Shown piece after piece: positions 5,683-60,968 of a DNA stretch of 60,968 nucleotides. Position numbers and translations under genes: made by a program. This stretch comes from Dehalococcoidia bacterium (GTDB taxonomy: Bacteria > Chloroflexota > Dehalococcoidia > UBA2979): positions 1 to 60,968 of the forward strand of contig JAIBBD010000006.1 in assembly GCA_019694855.1 (NCBI GenBank), read 5' to 3'. The first letter of the stretch is position 1, and each line of letters begins with the position of its first letter. The notes beneath the pieces were generated by a model that worked only from the letters and a program-made list of their open reading frames with translations, did not search any database and was not told the origin of the DNA.

Positions 5683-6369
5683 GTGACCACCCACTCACTC
5701 GACCTGCACACGCACAACGACATCGCGCCCCTCGACCTCGACGAGGAGATTCGCAAGAACGTCCTCGTCACATCGGTCGACGGCATCCTCAACTGGGCCC
5801 GCTCGTCATCGTTGTGGCCGGCGATGTTCGGCCTCGCCTGCTGCGCCATCGAGATGATCGCCACCGCGACCTCGCGGTACGACATCGCGCGCTTCGGGTC
5901 CGAGGTGTTCCGCGCCTCGCCGCGTCAGGCCGACCTCATGATCGTCGCCGGCACGGTGACCTGGAAGATGGCCCCCGCGGTACGGCGGGTCTACCTCCAG
6001 ATGGCCGAGCCCAAGTGGGTCATCTCGATGGGTGGCTGCGCGATCATGGGCGGCCCGTTCGCGTACGGGTACTCGGTGCTGCCCGGCGTGAACCTCATTT
6101 GCCCCGTCGACGTCTACGTCCCCGGCTGTCCGCCCCGTCCGGAGTCGCTGCTCCAGGGACTGATGATGCTGCAGGACAAGATCCGCCAGCACGGCGTCGA
6201 GGGCGGGCAGCGCCTGCGGCCAGAACCGGATGGCGACTTTTCTCGCTACCTGCCGGCGGGTGACCCGCTGCGCACCGAGCTGGAGTCGCTCTTCCCGCCG
6301 TACCTCGGCCTCGATGATCCGAACCGCCTCGCCGGCGGCTACCCGCTGGCTGGCAACATCCGCCGGTAG
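5683..6369 (+). CDS. nuoB: NADH-quinone oxidoreductase subunit B, isolated copy
   Basis: The 228-aa protein matches NuoB, the peripheral-arm subunit that holds Fe-S cluster N2 and passes electrons to quinone. All four ligand cysteines are visible: the tandem pair in GLACCAIEM, one in [10 protein letters not shown] and one in [11 protein letters not shown]. The conserved [22 protein letters not shown] is intact. GTG at 5683 is the likely start. The C-terminal extension ([17 protein letters not shown] and onwards) is longer than in the shortest homologues but not unusual. No other nuo gene is nearby: the neighbours are msrA and a broken SnoaL-like gene. It may be a dispersed complex I gene or part of another NuoB-containing complex. 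Confidence 0.9.
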
Positions 6370-6383
6370 TCGACCGGCGTCGC

Positions 6384-6896
6384 GTGGATACTGCGGCGGC
6401 CACGGTCCTCGTCGAGCGATATCTGAGCCTCGTCGCCAACCCGGGATCCGACGTGCCGAGGCCGAGGCGCTGCTCGATCCCGACTACCGGTTCATCAAAC
6501 GTCCCAACCTCATGAATCCCGCTGGCTCAGAACGCGACCGCGCGGACCGCATTGGCGAGTATCCCGCAGGAACGGGCGCTCCTCGCATCCCAGGCCTTCA
6601 CGATTCACGACCACCACGCGTCTGAAGGCACGCTCATCACGAGGACGGCCTGGCCGGGGGAGCTGGCGATCGATGCCGGCCCCGTTATGCGCGGGACACG
6701 GTTGCATGCGGACATCGTGATGTTCTTCGCGTTCCGCGACGGGCGCATCCTCCTCCGGGAGAACGTCGACCGCTACGCGACCCCGAGACTCCACCGCCTC
6801 TGCCCTGAGGTCGCTACCCCGCGGCTAGCCGTCCCCAGATCAGCACGCGCGGATACGTATAGAGGTACGGCCGCGCAGGCCCGAGGGCCGCGATGA
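6384..6896 (+). pseudogene. SnoaL-like (NTF2-fold) gene with two compensating frameshifts
   Basis: Three successive reading-frame segments read as one SnoaL-like protein. Frame A starts at GTG 6384 (VDTAAATVLVERYLSLVAN). Frame B covers about 6465-6545 (AEALLDPDYRFIKRPNLMNP). From about 6545 the reading returns to frame A (LASIPQERALLASQAFTIHD, then ADIVMFFAFRDGRILLRENVDRY). Frame A between the two slips hits a stop at the base of the second segment, so no single ORF encodes the full domain. After the family-typical end near 6780 the frame runs on to 6896, into the convergent methyltransferase gene. This is either a decayed gene or two assembly errors; two independent indels that restore frame make both possible. 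Function of the intact form is unknown. Confidence 0.6.
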
Positions 6897-7602
6897 GCCG
6901 CCGCCCGTACTCTTCGAGAAACGCCGCATACAGCTCGGGCGACAGCCGAGAGCGGAACGCCGTGAGGAACGTGCCGCTCACCCACTCGACGACCGACTCG
7001 GGCCCCGGGAGCAAATGCGGGTAGATCTGGAGTCGCACCGACTGCTCCTCGAATCCCAGTGTGTGCAGCAACTCCGCATAGCGGACGGGCGACAGCACCG
7101 TCAGCGGACGTTCGTAGCCTTCGAGGGCGCTCGCGTACGGCTCCTCGCGCGCCAGATCCATGGCCGTGACGTGCGAGATGTGCCCTTCGTTCGCCGGCAT
7201 CTGGACCGCCAGTTGCCCGCCCGGCGCCACCAGGGAGCGCAGGCTGGGAAACAGGCGCTCGTGATCCGTCACCCACTGCAGAGCCGCGTTCGAGAACACG
7301 AGGTCGTACTGCCGGCGGCCCCACGGCTCGGACTCGAGGCGGTTGATGTCGCCGGCCTCGAACGTCAGCCCCGACTCCGCCTGCGCACGCGCCCGCCCGA
7401 GCATCGCCTCCGATGAGTCGATCCCGAGCGTGGACGCTGCCTCGAGCCCTCGGTGCAGCCAGGCCGTCAGCTCACCGCTGCCGCAACCGAGGTCGATGAC
7501 CGCCATCCCGGCCCGCGCACGTACCAGCGCCGCGAGGTCGTAGAACGGCTGGCTGCGTTCCGCCTCGAAGCGCGCGTACAGAGCAGGATCCCATGCGGTC
7601 AC
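6814..7602 (-). CDS. tam: SAM-dependent methyltransferase, trans-aconitate methyltransferase-like
   Basis: The 262-aa class I methyltransferase has the SAM-binding glycine motif VIDLGCGSGELTAWL near residue 36. It then shows GIDSSEAMLGRARAQ, DLVFSNAALQWVTDH and LVAPGGQLAVQMPANEGH, and ends PRVLIWGRL, all typical of trans-aconitate 2-methyltransferase, which esterifies trans-aconitate to detoxify an inhibitor of aconitase. The N-terminal MTAWDPALYARFEAERSQPFYDL is also typical. Its ATG overlaps the stop of the upstream LLM gene by 4 bp, so both are probably co-transcribed. A related methyltransferase specificity cannot be excluded. Confidence 0.8.
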   Translation of the reverse strand: MTAWDPALYARFEAERSQPFYDLAALVRARAGMAVIDLGCGSGELTAWLHRGLEAASTLGIDSSEAMLGRARAQAESGLTFEAGDINRLESEPWGRRQYDLVFSNAALQWVTDHERLFPSLRSLVAPGGQLAVQMPANEGHISHVTAMDLAREEPYASALEGYERPLTVLSPVRYAELLHTLGFEEQSVRLQIYPHLLPGPESVVEWVSGTFLTAFRSRLSPELYAAFLEEYGRRLIAALGPARPYLYTYPRVLIWGRLAAG

Positions 7603-56776: not shown

Positions 56777-57766
56777 TCAGTCGAGGCGGGCTCGCCGAGG
56801 GGAGTCTTCGCCGCGCAGCCAGCGCCCCAACTCTTCGAGGAAGATGGCATCCACGCGACCCTGCGTGCCGGCTGACCGCGCCGAGTCGTGTGGACTGATC
56901 AGGACGTTCGGCAGCTCCCAGAGCGGCGATTCCGCCGGAAGCGGCTCCGTGACGAAGACGTCGAGGTACGCGCCGCCCAACCGCCCGGACGCGAGGCGCT
57001 CCGCCAGGGCGGCTTCGTCCACCAGCTCGCCGCGCGCGACGTTGATCACCACGGCGCCCGCGGGTAGGCGGTCGAGCCGCCTCGCGTCGAACGTACCGCG
57101 CGTCTCGGACGTGAGCGGCGCCGTCAGCACGAGGATGTCCGCTTCCGGTAGCACTTCGTCGAGTCGCGCGGGCGGCGCCCAGGCGTCGACTCCGTCCTCG
57201 GGCGTGGCGGGGGTGCGGCGCACGCCGATCACCCGGATGCCGAATGCCCGCGCGAACTGCGCGACGTAGCGACCGATGCTCCCGAGGCCAAAGATGACCA
57301 TCGTCTGACCGCGCAGCTCGCGGGGCAGCTGTTCCGACGGGAGGTCGTCGGGGTCAGGCTCCCAGGCGTGTCGCCGCTGGGCGTCCAACCACCCCGGCAG
57401 GCCACGGTTCAACGCCAGCAGCCCGGCGAGAGCGCTCTGGGCGATCGGCTCCGCGTTCGCGCCCGCCGAGTTCGTGACCACGACGCCCCGGCCGATGAGC
57501 TCCTCGAAGACCGGGTCGTCGACTCCCGAGTGCCCGAGGTGGATCCAGCGCAGGTTCGTCGCCCGTCGCGCGGCGCCGAGGATCCGCCGCGTCCCCGAGG
57601 GACCGGACGCGAGGTTGAAGAACGCAGCGTCGACACGGTCGAGCACATCCGGCGCAAGGAAGGCGCCGGGTTCCTCGGGCGGGGTGACAACCTCGAGCTC
57701 CGGAATGCGCCGCAGCTCGGGACGCAGCCGCACGGCGACGTCTGGCGGCAGCAGGATGACAGGCAC
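56777..57766 (-). CDS. D-2-hydroxyacid dehydrogenase
   Basis: The 329-aa NAD-dependent dehydrogenase has TNLRWIHLGHSGVDD, NSAGANAEPIAQSALAGLLAL, the Rossmann motif VIFGLGSIGRYVAQFARAFG and INVARGELVDEAAL. The catalytic region near the end is LWELPNVLISPHDSARS with the His of the Arg-Glu-His triad. It reduces 2-keto acids, or acts as a phosphoglycerate/glyoxylate-type dehydrogenase; the substrate is unknown. The start is 51 bp from the transposon end. Confidence 0.86.
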   Translation of the reverse strand: MPVILLPPDVAVRLRPELRRIPELEVVTPPEEPGAFLAPDVLDRVDAAFFNLASGPSGTRRILGAARRATNLRWIHLGHSGVDDPVFEELIGRGVVVTNSAGANAEPIAQSALAGLLALNRGLPGWLDAQRRHAWEPDPDDLPSEQLPRELRGQTMVIFGLGSIGRYVAQFARAFGIRVIGVRRTPATPEDGVDAWAPPARLDEVLPEADILVLTAPLTSETRGTFDARRLDRLPAGAVVINVARGELVDEAALAERLASGRLGGAYLDVFVTEPLPAESPLWELPNVLISPHDSARSAGTQGRVDAIFLEELGRWLRGEDSPRRARLD

Positions 57767-57808
57767 TCGAGGAGTCTAGCGCCCTCGGACCGTCCTGCGT
57801 AACGACCT

Positions 57809-57816
57809 CGCGCGGG
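57809..57816. repeat. Target site duplication, left copy (CGCGCGGG)
   Basis: The 8-bp sequence immediately before the left inverted repeat is repeated exactly at 60842-60849 after the right repeat. IS1-family elements usually create 8-9 bp duplications. Confidence 0.85.
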
Positions 57817-57835
57817 GGTAGTGTCCTAGTTTGGA
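57817..57835 (+). repeat. Left terminal inverted repeat of IS1-like element
   Basis: GGTAGTGTCCTAGTTTGGA. It matches the inverted right end at 17 of 19 positions. The stop codon of the leftmost passenger gene (57826-57828) lies inside it. Confidence 0.85.
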
Positions 57836-57999
57836 AGCGGACGGATTGAGGAGCGCAATGGCACTAGGGCCTCCTCGTCGCAGTTGGGGCAGGTGAGCGG
57901 CGTGTCATCCACCTCATCACGATCGGCAGCTTCGAACTCCGAACCGCGATCCTCCTCGTAGCCGCAGGCGCTGCACTTCAGGCTGGCTGTCCATCTCAT
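57826..57999 (-). CDS. Passenger gene: 57-aa zinc-ribbon protein
   Basis: The protein MRWTASLKCSACGYEEDRG... has two CxxC-type knuckles, CSACGYEE and CPNCDEEALV, so a zinc-ribbon fold is likely. ATG at 57999 overlaps the stop of the preceding passenger gene by 4 bp, and its stop lies in the terminal repeat. The frame is open further upstream, but that is shadow of the 74-aa gene. Function unknown; DNA or protein binding is possible. Confidence 0.6.
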   Translation of the reverse strand: MRWTASLKCSACGYEEDRGSEFEAADRDEVDDTPLTCPNCDEEALVPLRSSIRPLPN

Positions 58000-58220
58000 G
58001 TGTCGGTACTCCTGTTGTCGCTGACTATCGCGGCTTGTACTGCCTTCTGCGGTGAGTCCACGGGCGGCTTGTGGAGCACCACAACGAACCGCCGCCGGCC
58101 GCCCGTGGTCTCGAAGCTCCATGCGTAGGCGCGGCTAGCTTCCGGACAGTCGATCAGGTCGAAGACCTGTACGTCGCCATCCCAGACGGTCTGCCCCTCG
58201 AAGGTCTCCGTAATGGGCAC
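57996..58220 (-). CDS. Passenger gene: small unknown protein
   Basis: The 74-aa product (MPITETFEGQTVWDGDVQVFDLIDC..RRFVVVLHKPPVDSPQKAVQAAIV) is beta-rich and unlike any family I recognise. The frame stays open upstream to 58298, reading TEASTEALTDAIRNLHGC, which resembles a genuine N-terminus; a CTG start at 58298 overlapping the previous gene's stop is possible and would give about 100 aa. It is translationally coupled to the zinc-ribbon gene. Confidence 0.5.
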   Translation of the reverse strand: MPITETFEGQTVWDGDVQVFDLIDCPEASRAYAWSFETTGGRRRFVVVLHKPPVDSPQKAVQAAIVSDNRSTDT

Positions 58221-58290
58221 GGACGCGACGTGACGCGACTCGCAGCCGTGCAGGTTGCGGATCGCGTCCGTCAGGGCCTCGGTCGATGCC

Positions 58291-59085
58291 TCAGTCAGCG
58301 TCCTGCTCCGTGGCGTCGGCGGCTTCTGGTTCCCGCTCGCTGGGCGCGATCCGCTCTTGAATAGCCAGATAGTCCTTGATCAGGCCGATCTCAGCCTTGG
58401 TCAGCGGTCCACCAGGCACGGCGATCTCGACCTGGCGGTCACTGACTTGGAAGTTCAACACGGTCATGCTCTCGTCCCGCTTTCGCACCCGAGGGCGACG
58501 GGCCGGATCATGCTTCTCTTCCCCGCCATGATCGCCGTCGTCATCGTGGTCTAGTTCTTCGTCATCGATCTTACCAGACGAATCGAGCCGAGCGAACGCG
58601 ACCGTATTGCGGAACTCGCGGATGAATTCATCCGCCCCATTCTCAGTGAACCCCCGACGTTGAATGAGATCGAATCGCAGGGCGGCGTCACTCGGAGGCA
58701 GCTCTCCGCCGTATTCGGCCCACAACTCCCGGTGGATGGCAGGAAGCAGCGCAAGCCGCCGGATGATCCGATCACGGTCGGGCGAGTCTTCGCGCTCGTC
58801 TCGAATGATGGCAAGCGCATCTTGAGTGAGCCGAGCGCGACGGTTCTCACCATTGCCTTCGCCCTCAGCGAGTCCGAACCTCAGCAGAGCAGCCAGAATC
58901 ACGCCGCCGGCACCACTAGTGGGTGAGAACCCCCACACGCTCAGTATCGAGTTGACCGGCGCGTCGTGGTGCCGCTGGGTGCTGTACATCTGACGCGCTC
59001 GGTCGATGGCTGCCCCGAGGTCGATACCTGGGTAGTTGGGGCTCCGGCCTCGCCGCACTTTCACCGCGTCCGTGTCTGTGGTCAT
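58291..59085 (-). CDS. Passenger gene: 264-aa protein of unknown function
   Basis: The protein starts MTTDTDAVKVRRGRSPNYPGIDLGAAIDRARQMYS, with ATG at 59085 supported by GGAG eight bases upstream. The N-terminal half (to about residue 160) resembles winged-helix/DUF5343-like proteins often found on mobile elements: NSILSVWGFSPTSGAGGVILAALLRFGLAE and LTQDALAIIRDE. The middle is Asp/Glu/His-rich and probably flexible. The C-terminal part (VSDRQVEIAVPGGPLTKAEIGLIKDYLAIQE) looks like a small separate domain. Resemblance is by pattern only. It is the first of the three-gene leftward operon. Confidence 0.6.
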   Translation of the reverse strand: MTTDTDAVKVRRGRSPNYPGIDLGAAIDRARQMYSTQRHHDAPVNSILSVWGFSPTSGAGGVILAALLRFGLAEGEGNGENRRARLTQDALAIIRDEREDSPDRDRIIRRLALLPAIHRELWAEYGGELPPSDAALRFDLIQRRGFTENGADEFIREFRNTVAFARLDSSGKIDDEELDHDDDGDHGGEEKHDPARRPRVRKRDESMTVLNFQVSDRQVEIAVPGGPLTKAEIGLIKDYLAIQERIAPSEREPEAADATEQDAD

Positions 59086-59106
59086 TGGAGTGCTCCTTCG
59101 TACGCA

Positions 59107-59136
59107 TCCGAGCCTAGCATCCCTACCAGACGAATG
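59107..59136 (-). promoter_or_regulatory. Leftward promoter candidate for the passenger operon
   Basis: Read on the minus strand, TTGCAT and TAGGCT are separated by 17 bp, ending about 25 bp before the ATG at 59085. CAGACGAA occurs at about 59127 in this promoter and again at about 59159 in the rightward promoter, a possible shared operator. Confidence 0.45.
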
Positions 59137-59149
59137 CAACCGTAACTAC

Positions 59150-59178
59150 TTGACATGTCAGACGAAATCCGGTAGATC
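59150..59178 (+). promoter_or_regulatory. Rightward promoter candidate
   Basis: Perfect TTGACA (59150-59155), 17-bp spacer, TAGATC (59173-59178). It would drive the hairpin, the tRNA-like sequence and perhaps the transposase. The hairpin directly downstream may attenuate it. Confidence 0.6.
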
Positions 59179-59198
59179 AAAGAAGTAGGGAGATAGAG

Positions 59199-59230
59199 GA
59201 AACCCCCGAGGCGGCTACCTCAGGGGTTTC
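59199..59230 (+). terminator. Hairpin inside the element, attenuator/terminator candidate
   Basis: GAAACCCCCGAGG and CCTCAGGGGTTTC pair over 13 positions with one C/A mismatch, loop CGGCTA. It lies between the rightward promoter and the tRNA-like sequence. Confidence 0.6.
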
Positions 59231-59234
59231 ATGT

Positions 59235-59306
59235 GGGGCGCGAAGTGGTTCCGGGCCGGGCTTTACATCTGGCACTCGCGGGGTTCGAGTCCCCGGCGCT
59301 CCACCA
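59235..59306 (+). tRNA. tRNA-like sequence with reduced D arm (possible UUA anticodon)
   Basis: The 5' GGGGCGC pairs with 3' GCGCTCC over seven positions (one G-U), followed by discriminator A and an encoded CCA. The T arm is standard: CGGGG TTCGAGT CCCCG. A stem CCGGG/TCTGG closes a 7-base loop CTTTACA; the anticodon position then reads UUA (codon UAA). Only 14 bases lie between acceptor and anticodon stem, too few for a normal D arm, and the variable loop has six bases. This may be a degenerate tRNA, a suppressor-like tRNA or a mimic. Fold assigned by eye. Confidence 0.45.
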
Positions 59307-59337
59307 AACCATTATAGCCGCTCACTAAGGGCACCAC

Positions 59338-60159
59338 ATGAATCGGCTATCCATCGACACCCAGACGCAGGTGATCGCGGCGCTGGTCGAGGGCTCCTCG
59401 ATCCGCAGCGTGGAGCGGATGACCGGCGTCCACCGCGACACAATCATGCGACTCGGCGTTCGGGTGGGCACGGCGTGCGAGCAGGCGATGGATGGGCTGC
59501 TTCGCAACCTGCACTGCCGCCGCCTCGAAGTCGACCAGGTCTGGGCATACGTCGGGAAGAAGGACCGCCACGTCACCCACGAGGATGACCAGTCCCAGGT
59601 CGGCTCGTTCTGGACCTGGGTCGCAATCGACGCGGACACGAAGCTCGTCCCGACGTGGCTCGTCAGCAAGCGGGACGCATTCGCGGCTGACGAGTTCATG
59701 GCCGACCTCGCCTCGCGCGTCCGCAACCGCCCGCAGATCAACACCGACGGCCTCAGGTTGTACGTGGACGCGGTGGAGAAGGCGTTCGGCTCCAATTTGG
59801 ACTGGGCCACAGTCGTAAAAAGTTACGAAGCGGAGCCGGTGGGACAGGGTAGATACTCCCCGCCGAAGGTGTCTTCCGTTGAGAAGACCCGGATGGCGGG
59901 GCACCCCAAGATGAGCGAGGCGAGCACCTCCTACATCGAGCGGTCGAACCTCGACCTGCGGATGAGCCAGCGGCGCTTCACGCGACTTACGAACGCCTTC
60001 AGCAAGCGCCCTGAGAACCTCGCTGCGGCTGTCAGCCTGCACTACACGCACCACAACATGGTGAGGCGTCACGGCACGCTGAAGACGACGCCAGCGGTCG
60101 CTGCCGGGATCGTCTACAGGGCGTGGACGGTGCGGGATCTGGTAGAGTTGGCGCAGTGA
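59338..60159 (+). CDS. IS1-like family DDE transposase
   Basis: The 273-aa transposase begins MNRLSIDTQTQVIAALVEGSSIRSVERMTGVHRDTIMRLG, an N-terminal HTH. The DDE triad is readable: Asp in CRRLEVDQVWAYVG, Asp in QINTDGLRLYVDAVE, and Glu in STSYIERSNLDLRMSQRRFTR, the latter an IS1-like C-terminal signature with FSKRPENLAAAVSLHYTHHNMVRRH. All are intact and the frame is uninterrupted (no programmed frameshift as in classical IS1). It should recognise the 19-bp ends at 57817 and 60841. Confidence 0.9.
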   Translation: MNRLSIDTQTQVIAALVEGSSIRSVERMTGVHRDTIMRLGVRVGTACEQAMDGLLRNLHCRRLEVDQVWAYVGKKDRHVTHEDDQSQVGSFWTWVAIDADTKLVPTWLVSKRDAFAADEFMADLASRVRNRPQINTDGLRLYVDAVEKAFGSNLDWATVVKSYEAEPVGQGRYSPPKVSSVEKTRMAGHPKMSEASTSYIERSNLDLRMSQRRFTRLTNAFSKRPENLAAAVSLHYTHHNMVRRHGTLKTTPAVAAGIVYRAWTVRDLVELAQ

Positions 60160-60440
60160 GTAGAACGGGTGTTTCTGATAAGGCGCGTGAGCGCTTCACG
60201 TCGGTTAAGGCGGGTACTATGTAAATAGGACATGAAAAACCCGCCGAGGTCGAGGACCGCGACGGGCTACCTGGTGGTTTAGCTGTTTCTAGGGTAGTCC
60301 TCGCTCGATCCCCTCGTCAACTTCGGCGCGTCAATCTGGTCATACGCAACGAGGACGGCTGTCACCGTCCCCGTCGCTTCCATCAACCCAGCGCGCCAGC
60401 TCACCTGAGAACGAGAACTACGGCTAGGTCATCCCAACGA
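60160..60440. other. Non-coding stretch after the transposase
   Basis: No ORF is evident. An imperfect hairpin near 60240-60283 (AAACCCGCCGAGGT ... ACCTGGTGGTTT) resembles the one at 59199 in sequence and may terminate transposase transcription. Confidence 0.4.
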
Positions 60441-60656
60441 ATGTTGATTCTGATCGAGCGTATGTCAGCCGTCAACCTCGTTTCGTCGCTCAGGGGCGCT
60501 TTCCGAACCGGAGGCACCATCGTGAACGACTATGTCGAAGATGGGGACTACGTGTACATCTTCCGCCCGTATATCACGGTGAAGGGCGTACGGAAGTACC
60601 ACCCCGAAGGCAAGATGTGGCGGCTCAAGATCCGCAAGGACAAGTTCCGCCAGTAA
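60441..60656 (+). CDS. Small ORF in the element, hypothetical protein
   Basis: The 71-aa reading frame ends VNDYVEDGDYVYIFRPYITVKGVRKYHPEGKMWRLKIRKDKFRQ, with a basic C-terminus and alternating beta-type pattern. Internal starts at 60462 or GTG 60522 would give 64 or 44 aa. It has no recognised family; codon composition is reasonable for this genome. It is followed by two hairpins before the right end. Confidence 0.42.
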   Translation: MLILIERMSAVNLVSSLRGAFRTGGTIVNDYVEDGDYVYIFRPYITVKGVRKYHPEGKMWRLKIRKDKFRQ

Positions 60657-60670
60657 CGCAGCGAGGACGA

Positions 60671-60699
60671 TGCTGGTGGTGGCGCGACCGCCACCAGCA
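60671..60699. repeat. Inverted repeat (hairpin) near the right end of the element
   Basis: TGCTGGTGGTGG pairs with CCGCCACCAGCA over 12 positions with one T-G wobble, 5-base loop. It lies just after the small ORF. Confidence 0.6.
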
Positions 60700-60717
60700 C
60701 TCCGCCATACGACGAAC

Positions 60718-60739
60718 GAGGCCCGCGCAAGCGGGCCTC
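60718..60739. terminator. Hairpin terminator candidate
   Basis: Perfect 9-bp stem GAGGCCCGC / GCGGGCCTC with GCAA loop, followed by TCGTCT. It probably ends transcription of the small ORF before the right terminal repeat. Confidence 0.62.
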
Positions 60740-60822
60740 TCGTCTACCTGCCGCGCCGGGCCATGCCTTGCCATGCCGTACCTCGCCCTGTCCATCCAGT
60801 GTAGAGCAGGCAGCCTGACGAT

Positions 60823-60841
60823 TCCAAATTAGGACAGTACC
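60823..60841 (-). repeat. Right terminal inverted repeat of IS1-like element
   Basis: TCCAAATTAGGACAGTACC; reverse complement GGTACTGTCCTAATTTGGA matches the left end at 17 of 19 positions. Confidence 0.85.
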
Positions 60842-60849
60842 CGCGCGGG
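60842..60849. repeat. Target site duplication, right copy (CGCGCGGG)
   Basis: Exact copy of 57809-57816, directly flanking the right inverted repeat. Confidence 0.85.
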
Positions 60850-60857
60850 CCTATGAT

Positions 60858-60886
60858 TTCGCACCGAGGGAACGTTCCGTTAGACT
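60858..60886 (+). promoter_or_regulatory. Promoter candidate with internal palindrome
   Basis: TTCGCA (60858-60863), 17-bp spacer, TAGACT (60881-60886). The spacer holds the perfect palindrome GGAACGTTCC (60869-60878), a possible operator. It is upstream of the gene that starts near 60951 and just outside the transposon. Confidence 0.38.
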
Positions 60887-60950
60887 AAACCAAACGTACC
60901 GCGGCGCATTCCGGCGGCGCACTGCTGAACTGCTGAAAAGGACGCCGCCC

Positions 60951-60968
60951 GTGGCTGTGACCGTGCTG
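60951..60968 (+). CDS. Start of a gene running off the window
   Basis: GTG at 60951 with AAAGGA about ten bases upstream begins MAVTVL and is open to the window end. Only six codons are visible, so identity cannot be stated. The transposon insertion lies about 110 bp upstream and may have altered its promoter. Confidence 0.4.

Follow-up and report, generated by a model that had tools for sequence, protein, structure and literature searches.

An IS1-like transposon with added genes and a tRNA-like RNA before its transposase in a Dehalococcoidia bacterium

The element, its transposase and its relatives

The DNA analysed here, referred to as the window, is a stretch of 60,968 nucleotides (nt) from a Dehalococcoidia bacterium (GenBank assembly GCA_019694855.1, contig JAIBBD010000006.1), and close to its right-hand end lies an IS1-like element of 3,025 base pairs (bp; 57817-60841). 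The inverted ends of this element, GGTAGTGTCCTAGTTTGGA on the left (57817-57835, + strand) and, read inward, GGTACTGTCCTAATTTGGA on the right (60841-60823, - strand), agree in 17 of their 19 positions and are enclosed by an exact 8-bp target duplication, CGCGCGGG, with copies at 57809-57816 and 60842-60849. By shuffling positions 57001-60968, we found that an end pair of this quality with an identical outer 8-mer occurs once in the real sequence and in none of 200 mononucleotide shuffles. Between the ends lie the transposase gene tnp (59338-60159, +) and, divergent from it, three genes that we call c264 (58291-59085, -), c100 (57996-58310, -) and c57 (57826-57999, -), and a tRNA-like RNA of 72 nt (59235-59306, +) precedes the transposase start. 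An earlier note on this DNA had described an intact IS1-like transposon with these ends and this duplication, and a divergent operon of three genes beside the transposase. Re-reading, the shuffles and recurrence in other genomes bear out the transposon, and the operon was confirmed as well; the tRNA-like RNA and a further open reading frame (ORF) of 71 amino acids (aa; 60441-60656, +) had been overlooked.

Profile searches and an alignment of 27 transposase sequences identify the tnp product as a single-ORF DDE transposase of 273 aa. The top NCBIfam model for this protein was IS1, with a partial match to NF033558 of 54.9 bits against a cut-off of 100, and the scores on PF03400 and PF13610 were 22.4 of 24.1 and 27.6 of 27. 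Because tnp misses the NF033558 equivalog cut-off, on which the transposases of its relatives reach 47-66 bits, we call the element IS1-like and place it outside that equivalog. In the alignment, D66 is present in 26 of 27 sequences and D137 and E201 in all of them, with R202, N204 and R208 also conserved, and the resulting motifs DExW, TDG and ERxNLxxR follow the pattern of IS1-type DDE transposases. The element thus has both broad marks of an IS1-like element: the DDE triad within such motifs, and inverted ends starting GGT..TG with a duplication of 8-9 bp. The first catalytic motif of the window transposase reads DQVW (59533-59544), with Q67 at a position where E is found in 26/27 sequences. 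Membership of the IS1595 family was rejected (NF033547, 18.2 of 75 bits; no zinc ribbon in the transposase), as was the classical IS1 layout of an insA/insB frameshift in ~0.8 kb, the window having one 273-aa ORF in 3,025 bp. In the transposase tree, the window sequence forms a group with those of loci L005, from the Olavius-associated Delta 1, and L067 at a support of 97/92; the grouping with L077 has 100/98.

Relatives were gathered by transposase alone and their ends were then paired, which yielded 19 complete elements including that of the window. The related transposases (36-59% identity) lie in elements with similar ends, and 18 of the 19 complete elements carry an exact 8-bp duplication. 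The end consensus was also copied exactly in 29 viral contigs of IMG/VR, several of them with duplications, and the search for further copies of the ends that the earlier note had proposed was thereby answered. The complete elements range from 2,050 to 7,068 bp, and none is a bare insertion sequence (IS) of ~1 kb. Since all 19 are at least 2.0 kb long, about 2 kb of extra DNA is normal in this subgroup, and the size near 1 kb that had been expected of an IS1-like element is inapplicable to it. Extra genes, amounting to 1-6 kb beside the transposase, are the rule in this IS1-like subgroup; elsewhere in the family they encode N6/N4 DNA methylases and PIN, PemK, Panacea, P63C and dCTP deaminase-like proteins.

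Several further observations concern the relatives. Many elements have, close to their left end, a gene for a basic protein of ~90 aa with the pattern GRLGGxKGGKARAxKLTPExRxEIAxxAAxxRW (L079:1438-1695, L021:364-642, L043:3403-3678 and others). In the closest relative, the transposase is followed immediately on its 3' side by a gene for a toxin of the PemK/MazF type (41 bits; L005:5859-6284), with no partner antitoxin identified. Three elements of 0.8-1.1 kb in viral contigs (L119:2397-3169, L116:4664-5452 and L140:4683-5817) have the family's ends and exact 8-bp duplications, and no complete transposase was found in them. A 2,140-bp element in L114 (8659-10798), with the exact duplication CTTTTTTG, carries a methylase gene, a tRNA, a tRNA-like match and only a broken transposase start, and this element apparently moved in trans.

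The G+C content of the window element is 62%, compared with 71% in its flanks. Its left neighbour is a D-2-hydroxyacid dehydrogenase-like gene (56777-57766, -), and the right flank runs on in contig C15 as an ORF. The last 127 bases of the window contig (60842-60968) overlap C15, a contig of the same genome that starts exactly where the right duplication does. An assembler break would be expected there if element-free molecules were also present, so that the insertion is possibly polymorphic in the sample; the sign is only suggestive because the left side of the element is unbroken. Inside the right end, two strong hairpins at 60671-60739 (folding, z -4.3) are probable bidirectional terminators. 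The 71-aa ORF, taken from the ORF list, had no above-threshold family match in protein profile searches and is possibly no gene.

The tRNA-like RNA in the transposase leader

Folded alone, positions 59235-59306 form a cloverleaf with an acceptor of 7 bp (GGGGCGC/GCGCTCC) that includes G3.U70, a D arm of 3 bp, an anticodon-like arm with the loop CTTTACA and a T-arm (CGGGG-TTCGAGT-CCCCG), followed by an encoded ACCA. This RNA sits between the transposase start and a terminator-like hairpin (59199-59230), which was found by folding and has counterparts in the corresponding position of L005, L067, L068 and L112. Further 5', the sequence TTGACA-17-TAGATC (59150-59178, +) resembles a promoter with a weak -10 element; it was read by inspection and is absent from the promoter scan listing.

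The same RNA structure was found 31-87 bases 5' of the transposase in five elements (window, L005, L067, L044 and L057), which made up the rows of an RNA model from which L068 was left out. In the five-row alignment, 97.6% of pair cells were paired versus 81.4% after shuffling, with six pairs showing two-sided changes, and covariation was 0.512 versus at most 0.147 for slid partners; as three of the rows come from one transposase clade and all were fitted manually to the cloverleaf with N padding, these pair counts lean to the cloverleaf and are not fully independent. Covariation was seen in all three helices, and G3.U70 was invariant (5/5). The match to the held-out L068 is a cleaner test than the pair counts: the covariance model found it at 67.1 bits, 37 bases 5' of a truncated transposase start and with a UUUACA loop. 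Host tRNAs scored no more than 42 bits on this model, most of the top ones being tRNA-Ala. A covariance search of two phyla, covering 218 genomes of one and 201 of the other, returned element copies as its strong matches, plus one RNA in L112 (51 bits), and a search of IMG/VR for the tRNA-like motif bearing a UUUACA loop had no hits.

By the measure of an ARAGORN call or an Rfam tRNA match above threshold, the window RNA is not a canonical tRNA: ARAGORN reported no tRNA in the window, and Rfam gave only sub-threshold mascRNA and tRNA-Sec matches. The RNA does carry alanine identity elements in the form of the acceptor G3.U70, A73, CCA and the T-arm, together with the covariation. The copies in L005, L044 and L057 match the model of transfer-messenger RNA (tmRNA). 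A tmRNA identity was rejected for an RNA of 72 nt with no tag, a full tmRNA match being present elsewhere in the host genome (contig C38), and kinship with tmRNA was rejected on the equal score of the host tRNA-Ala on the tmRNA model (42.7 bits), for which reason we claim only an alanine-type tRNA-like RNA.

Ordinary tRNAs occupy the same position in some relatives. Across 32 loci (324 kb), ARAGORN detected four tRNAs only, namely the L067 copy and those in L021 (act), L053 (tag) and L078 (tgc), and all four lie directly 5' of this group's transposase and on its strand; the chance of a random tRNA landing in such a 400-base stretch is ~0.02 per tRNA. Among the IMG/VR elements, L132 has a tRNA ~280 bases 5' of its transposase, and the tRNA and tRNA-like match of L114 stand before the broken transposase on the same strand. 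Many other elements have no tRNA at this position. A literature search, partial in coverage, retrieved no paper on ISMhu11 or DUF5343 and no description of tRNA-like RNAs before transposases, and a tRNA-like leader of a transposase is apparently an undescribed feature.

The RNA match in L112 has a setting of its own (6182-7148), in which a c264-like gene precedes a hairpin and a tRNA-like RNA of alanine type, next to a gene for a methylase-like protein of 1,110 aa. No transposase or ends were found near this gene and RNA.

The genes beside the transposase

The structural model of c264, a protein of 264 aa read from an ATG start, predicts a tandem winged helix at residues 14-179, joined to a C-terminal hairpin-helix by a linker of low confidence. 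For residues 14-179, the structural aligner ranked FokI first (Z 8.7, 159-161 residues aligned, root-mean-square deviation 3.9), a match barely above the level of a common arrangement and made with a moderate model (predicted local distance difference test, pLDDT, 68); N.BspD6I and SspB followed at Z ~7.1, and MarR-type single winged helices at 6-7. On the strength of this model, c264 is a putative sequence-specific DNA-binding protein. Homologues of c264 were present in 5/237 genomes of the Delta 1 phylum (L068, L077, L078, L079 and L080), and a sequence search gave no match in plasmid or IMG/VR collections. In L077, L078 and L079 the gene lies beside this group's transposase and divergent from it, with paired ends and 8-bp duplications in L077 and L079 and a contig end cutting off L078, and in L068 the order is tnp start, tRNA-like RNA, c264, c100, end. 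The divergent place beside tnp is therefore kept in five elements, the window's included. Because these are scattered over distant branches of the transposase tree, c264 has been exchanged between elements. Before the transposase, L044 has a DUF5343 protein (52.7 bits), L057 a protein resembling HARE-HTH (helix-turn-helix; 24.3 of 25.9 bits) and L005 a P63C protein with an HTH, so that a neighbour of the transposase with a winged helix or HTH is a recurrent feature.

The earlier note had given the middle gene 74-100 aa. The shorter length holds from the first usual start codon (GTG), and homology spans ~25-30 residues more, or ~100 aa in total, for which the sequence offers only non-standard starts (e.g. 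CTG) in a stretch overlapping the end of c264. Relatives of c100 accompany elements of several phyla, eight in all (window, L005, L067, L068, L069, L122, L129 and L141). Those of L005 (53%) and L067 (45%) lie inside the elements, and those of L068 and L069 adjoin an element end. Sequence searches with c100 gave no match in plasmid, phage or IMG/VR collections, and the IMG/VR copies (L122, L129 and L141) surfaced later through the end sequence alone. In L122 and L141 the ATG of c100 overlaps the transposase stop as ATGA, an arrangement of translational coupling. A search of a further 300 genomes from the host's phylum did not find the gene. Matches in L070 and L071 (32%, E ~1e-5) were dropped, as they overlap the start of a tyrosine-recombinase-like ORF. 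The model of c100 is an alpha-beta4-alpha fold (pLDDT 82) for which Foldseek gave no convincing match (best E 0.12), and the top hits of the structural aligner (a designed protein at Z 5.7, with Ugi, cystatin-like proteins and SciW at ~4) were judged to reflect a common arrangement. One of the eight c100 homologues matched NCBIfam TnpC_regulator at E 0.0028 and 17.7 of 100 bits, below the cut-off and thus a lead only. Near c100 in L122 (2478-2696), L129 (1725-1946) and L141 (1759-1947) is a small protein, ribbon-helix-helix-like by eye, with GRPKLPKGEA near its start.

The third gene, c57, encodes a 57-aa protein with weak zinc-ribbon matches, and its final codons fall within the left inverted end. 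BLAST of the other elements gave no homologue of it.

Proposed mechanism, alternatives and known systems

We favour, with a probability of about 50%, the reading that the locus is an IS1-like transposon with c264 and c100 as regulatory genes and a processed tRNA-like leader on its transposase transcript, a reading built on the anatomy of the element and its recurrence. In this mechanism, the transposase would insert the element with an 8-bp stagger. The tnp transcript would begin 5' of the hairpin, which would stop many transcripts, and host enzymes of tRNA maturation would excise the tRNA-like segment, RNase P acting at its 5' side and 3' processing at the CCA, leaving a tnp mRNA with a short leader. 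This arrangement would hold transposase levels low and shielded from transcription coming from outside and, tRNA maturation being a universal process, would do so whatever the host. With its G3.U70 pair and encoded CCA, the RNA might in addition be charged with alanine. The c264 protein would be sequence-specific and bind the element, the simplest site being the stretch that separates c264 from tnp, and would set transcription of both genes; c100, produced alongside c264 in the window and alongside the transposase in other elements, would be a small accessory or regulatory partner. We suggest only tentatively that a group of IS1-like transposons processes or controls its own tnp mRNA through the tRNA machinery of the host, by means of a built-in tRNA mimic of alanine identity set between a hairpin and the transposase start, a tandem winged-helix protein and its small partner, with members having recruited different tRNA genes to this position.

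Several points weigh against this reading. Processing, charging and DNA binding are inferred, and to the limits already given for the pair counts and the FokI match are added those of the window transposase itself, which, with Q67 in place of the usual E, may be weakened or lack activity. The tRNA-like RNA is missing from most elements of the wider group and is therefore not essential. As c264 occurs without a nearby transposase in L080 and, as a weak homologue accompanied by the RNA, in L112, c264 and the RNA could also form a module of their own.

These occurrences without tnp also fit the alternative that c264, c100 and c57 are true passengers, such as a defence, stress or host-fitness unit unrelated to transposition, as do the scatter of c264 over the transposase tree and the variable, modular gene content of the family (methylases, PIN, PemK, Panacea, dCTP deaminase-like). 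We consider this rather unlikely, since five elements keep c264 next to tnp in divergent orientation, two have an ATGA overlap joining c100 to tnp, and no toxin, antitoxin or defence profile in PADLOC, Pfam, NCBIfam or PHROG was matched by either protein. Both genes instead look accessory or regulatory. The earlier note's view of a cargo with no recognised role in transposition is therefore probably wrong in spirit, given that c100 accompanies eight elements and c264 lies divergent beside tnp in five; of its three proposals a regulator fits best, and a known toxin-antitoxin or defence unit found no profile to support it, although genes of toxin-antitoxin type do occur in other elements of the family. 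Its question of whether the cargo always travels with the transposase has a divided answer, as c264 and c100 do occur with other transposases of the group and c264 also stands without one in L080 and L112.

The RNA itself could be a decayed tRNA gene caught by chance and functionless in the element. The degenerate D arm, the missing ARAGORN call in the window and the presence of ordinary tRNAs, of several types, at the corresponding position of other elements are what such a relic might leave. Covariation in all three helices, the invariant G3.U70, the same position and preceding hairpin in several elements and the low positional chance of ~0.02 per tRNA speak for function, and we hold this explanation to be improbable. 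More improbable still is a working ochre-suppressor tRNA of alanine identity that reads through UAA. All four copies of the window subgroup have a (C/G)UUUACA loop with UUA at the anticodon position, and ARAGORN labels the L067 copy tRNA-Stop(tta). However, position 37 is C, which is unusual in decoding tRNAs, the loops of L044 and L057 differ, three of the transposases end in TGA, and no long conserved open frame lies behind the TAA stops of the window, L005 and L067 elements. That the boundaries are a chance match or an assembly artefact is scarcely credible: the contig does end at an assembly junction, 127 bases after the right duplication starts, yet ends and exact duplications are seen again in independent genomes and the right flank extends on C15 into an ORF.

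The common picture of an IS is a transposase flanked by two ends. This subgroup routinely adds genes, some of which are kept beside the transposase across phyla, and if the RNA is processed or charged, it would provide a host-independent way of regulating transposition.

Compared with the IS1 family (NF033558; DDE_Tnp_IS1, PF03400), the window element shares the D-E-x-W, T-D-G and E-R-x-N-L-x-x-R motifs, ends starting GGTA.TG and an 8-bp duplication, and differs in its single 273-aa ORF, its scores below the cut-offs and its 3 kb with added genes. The ISMhu11-like subgroup of ISfinder, with its longer elements, may be the nearest named group. The RNA resembles alanine tRNA and the tRNA-like domain of tmRNA in its 7-bp acceptor with G3.U70, its T-arm and its CCA, whereas its weak D arm, the C37 of its odd anticodon-like loop and its position in a transposase leader are different. 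The DNA-recognition part of FokI (PDB 1fok, 2fok) has the tandem winged-helix arrangement predicted for c264, which has no nuclease domain and only 10-11% identity, and we do not claim membership. IS copies with passenger genes are already known as transporter IS (tIS; PMC3129680; PMC7986276), first treated for IS1595 by Siguier (2009), as cited in PMC3129680. Like a tIS, the window element has one transposase and one pair of ends with additional genes between them; unlike a tIS, it contains a tRNA-like RNA, and because some of its extra genes recur and keep their position, these are probably accessory rather than passenger genes.

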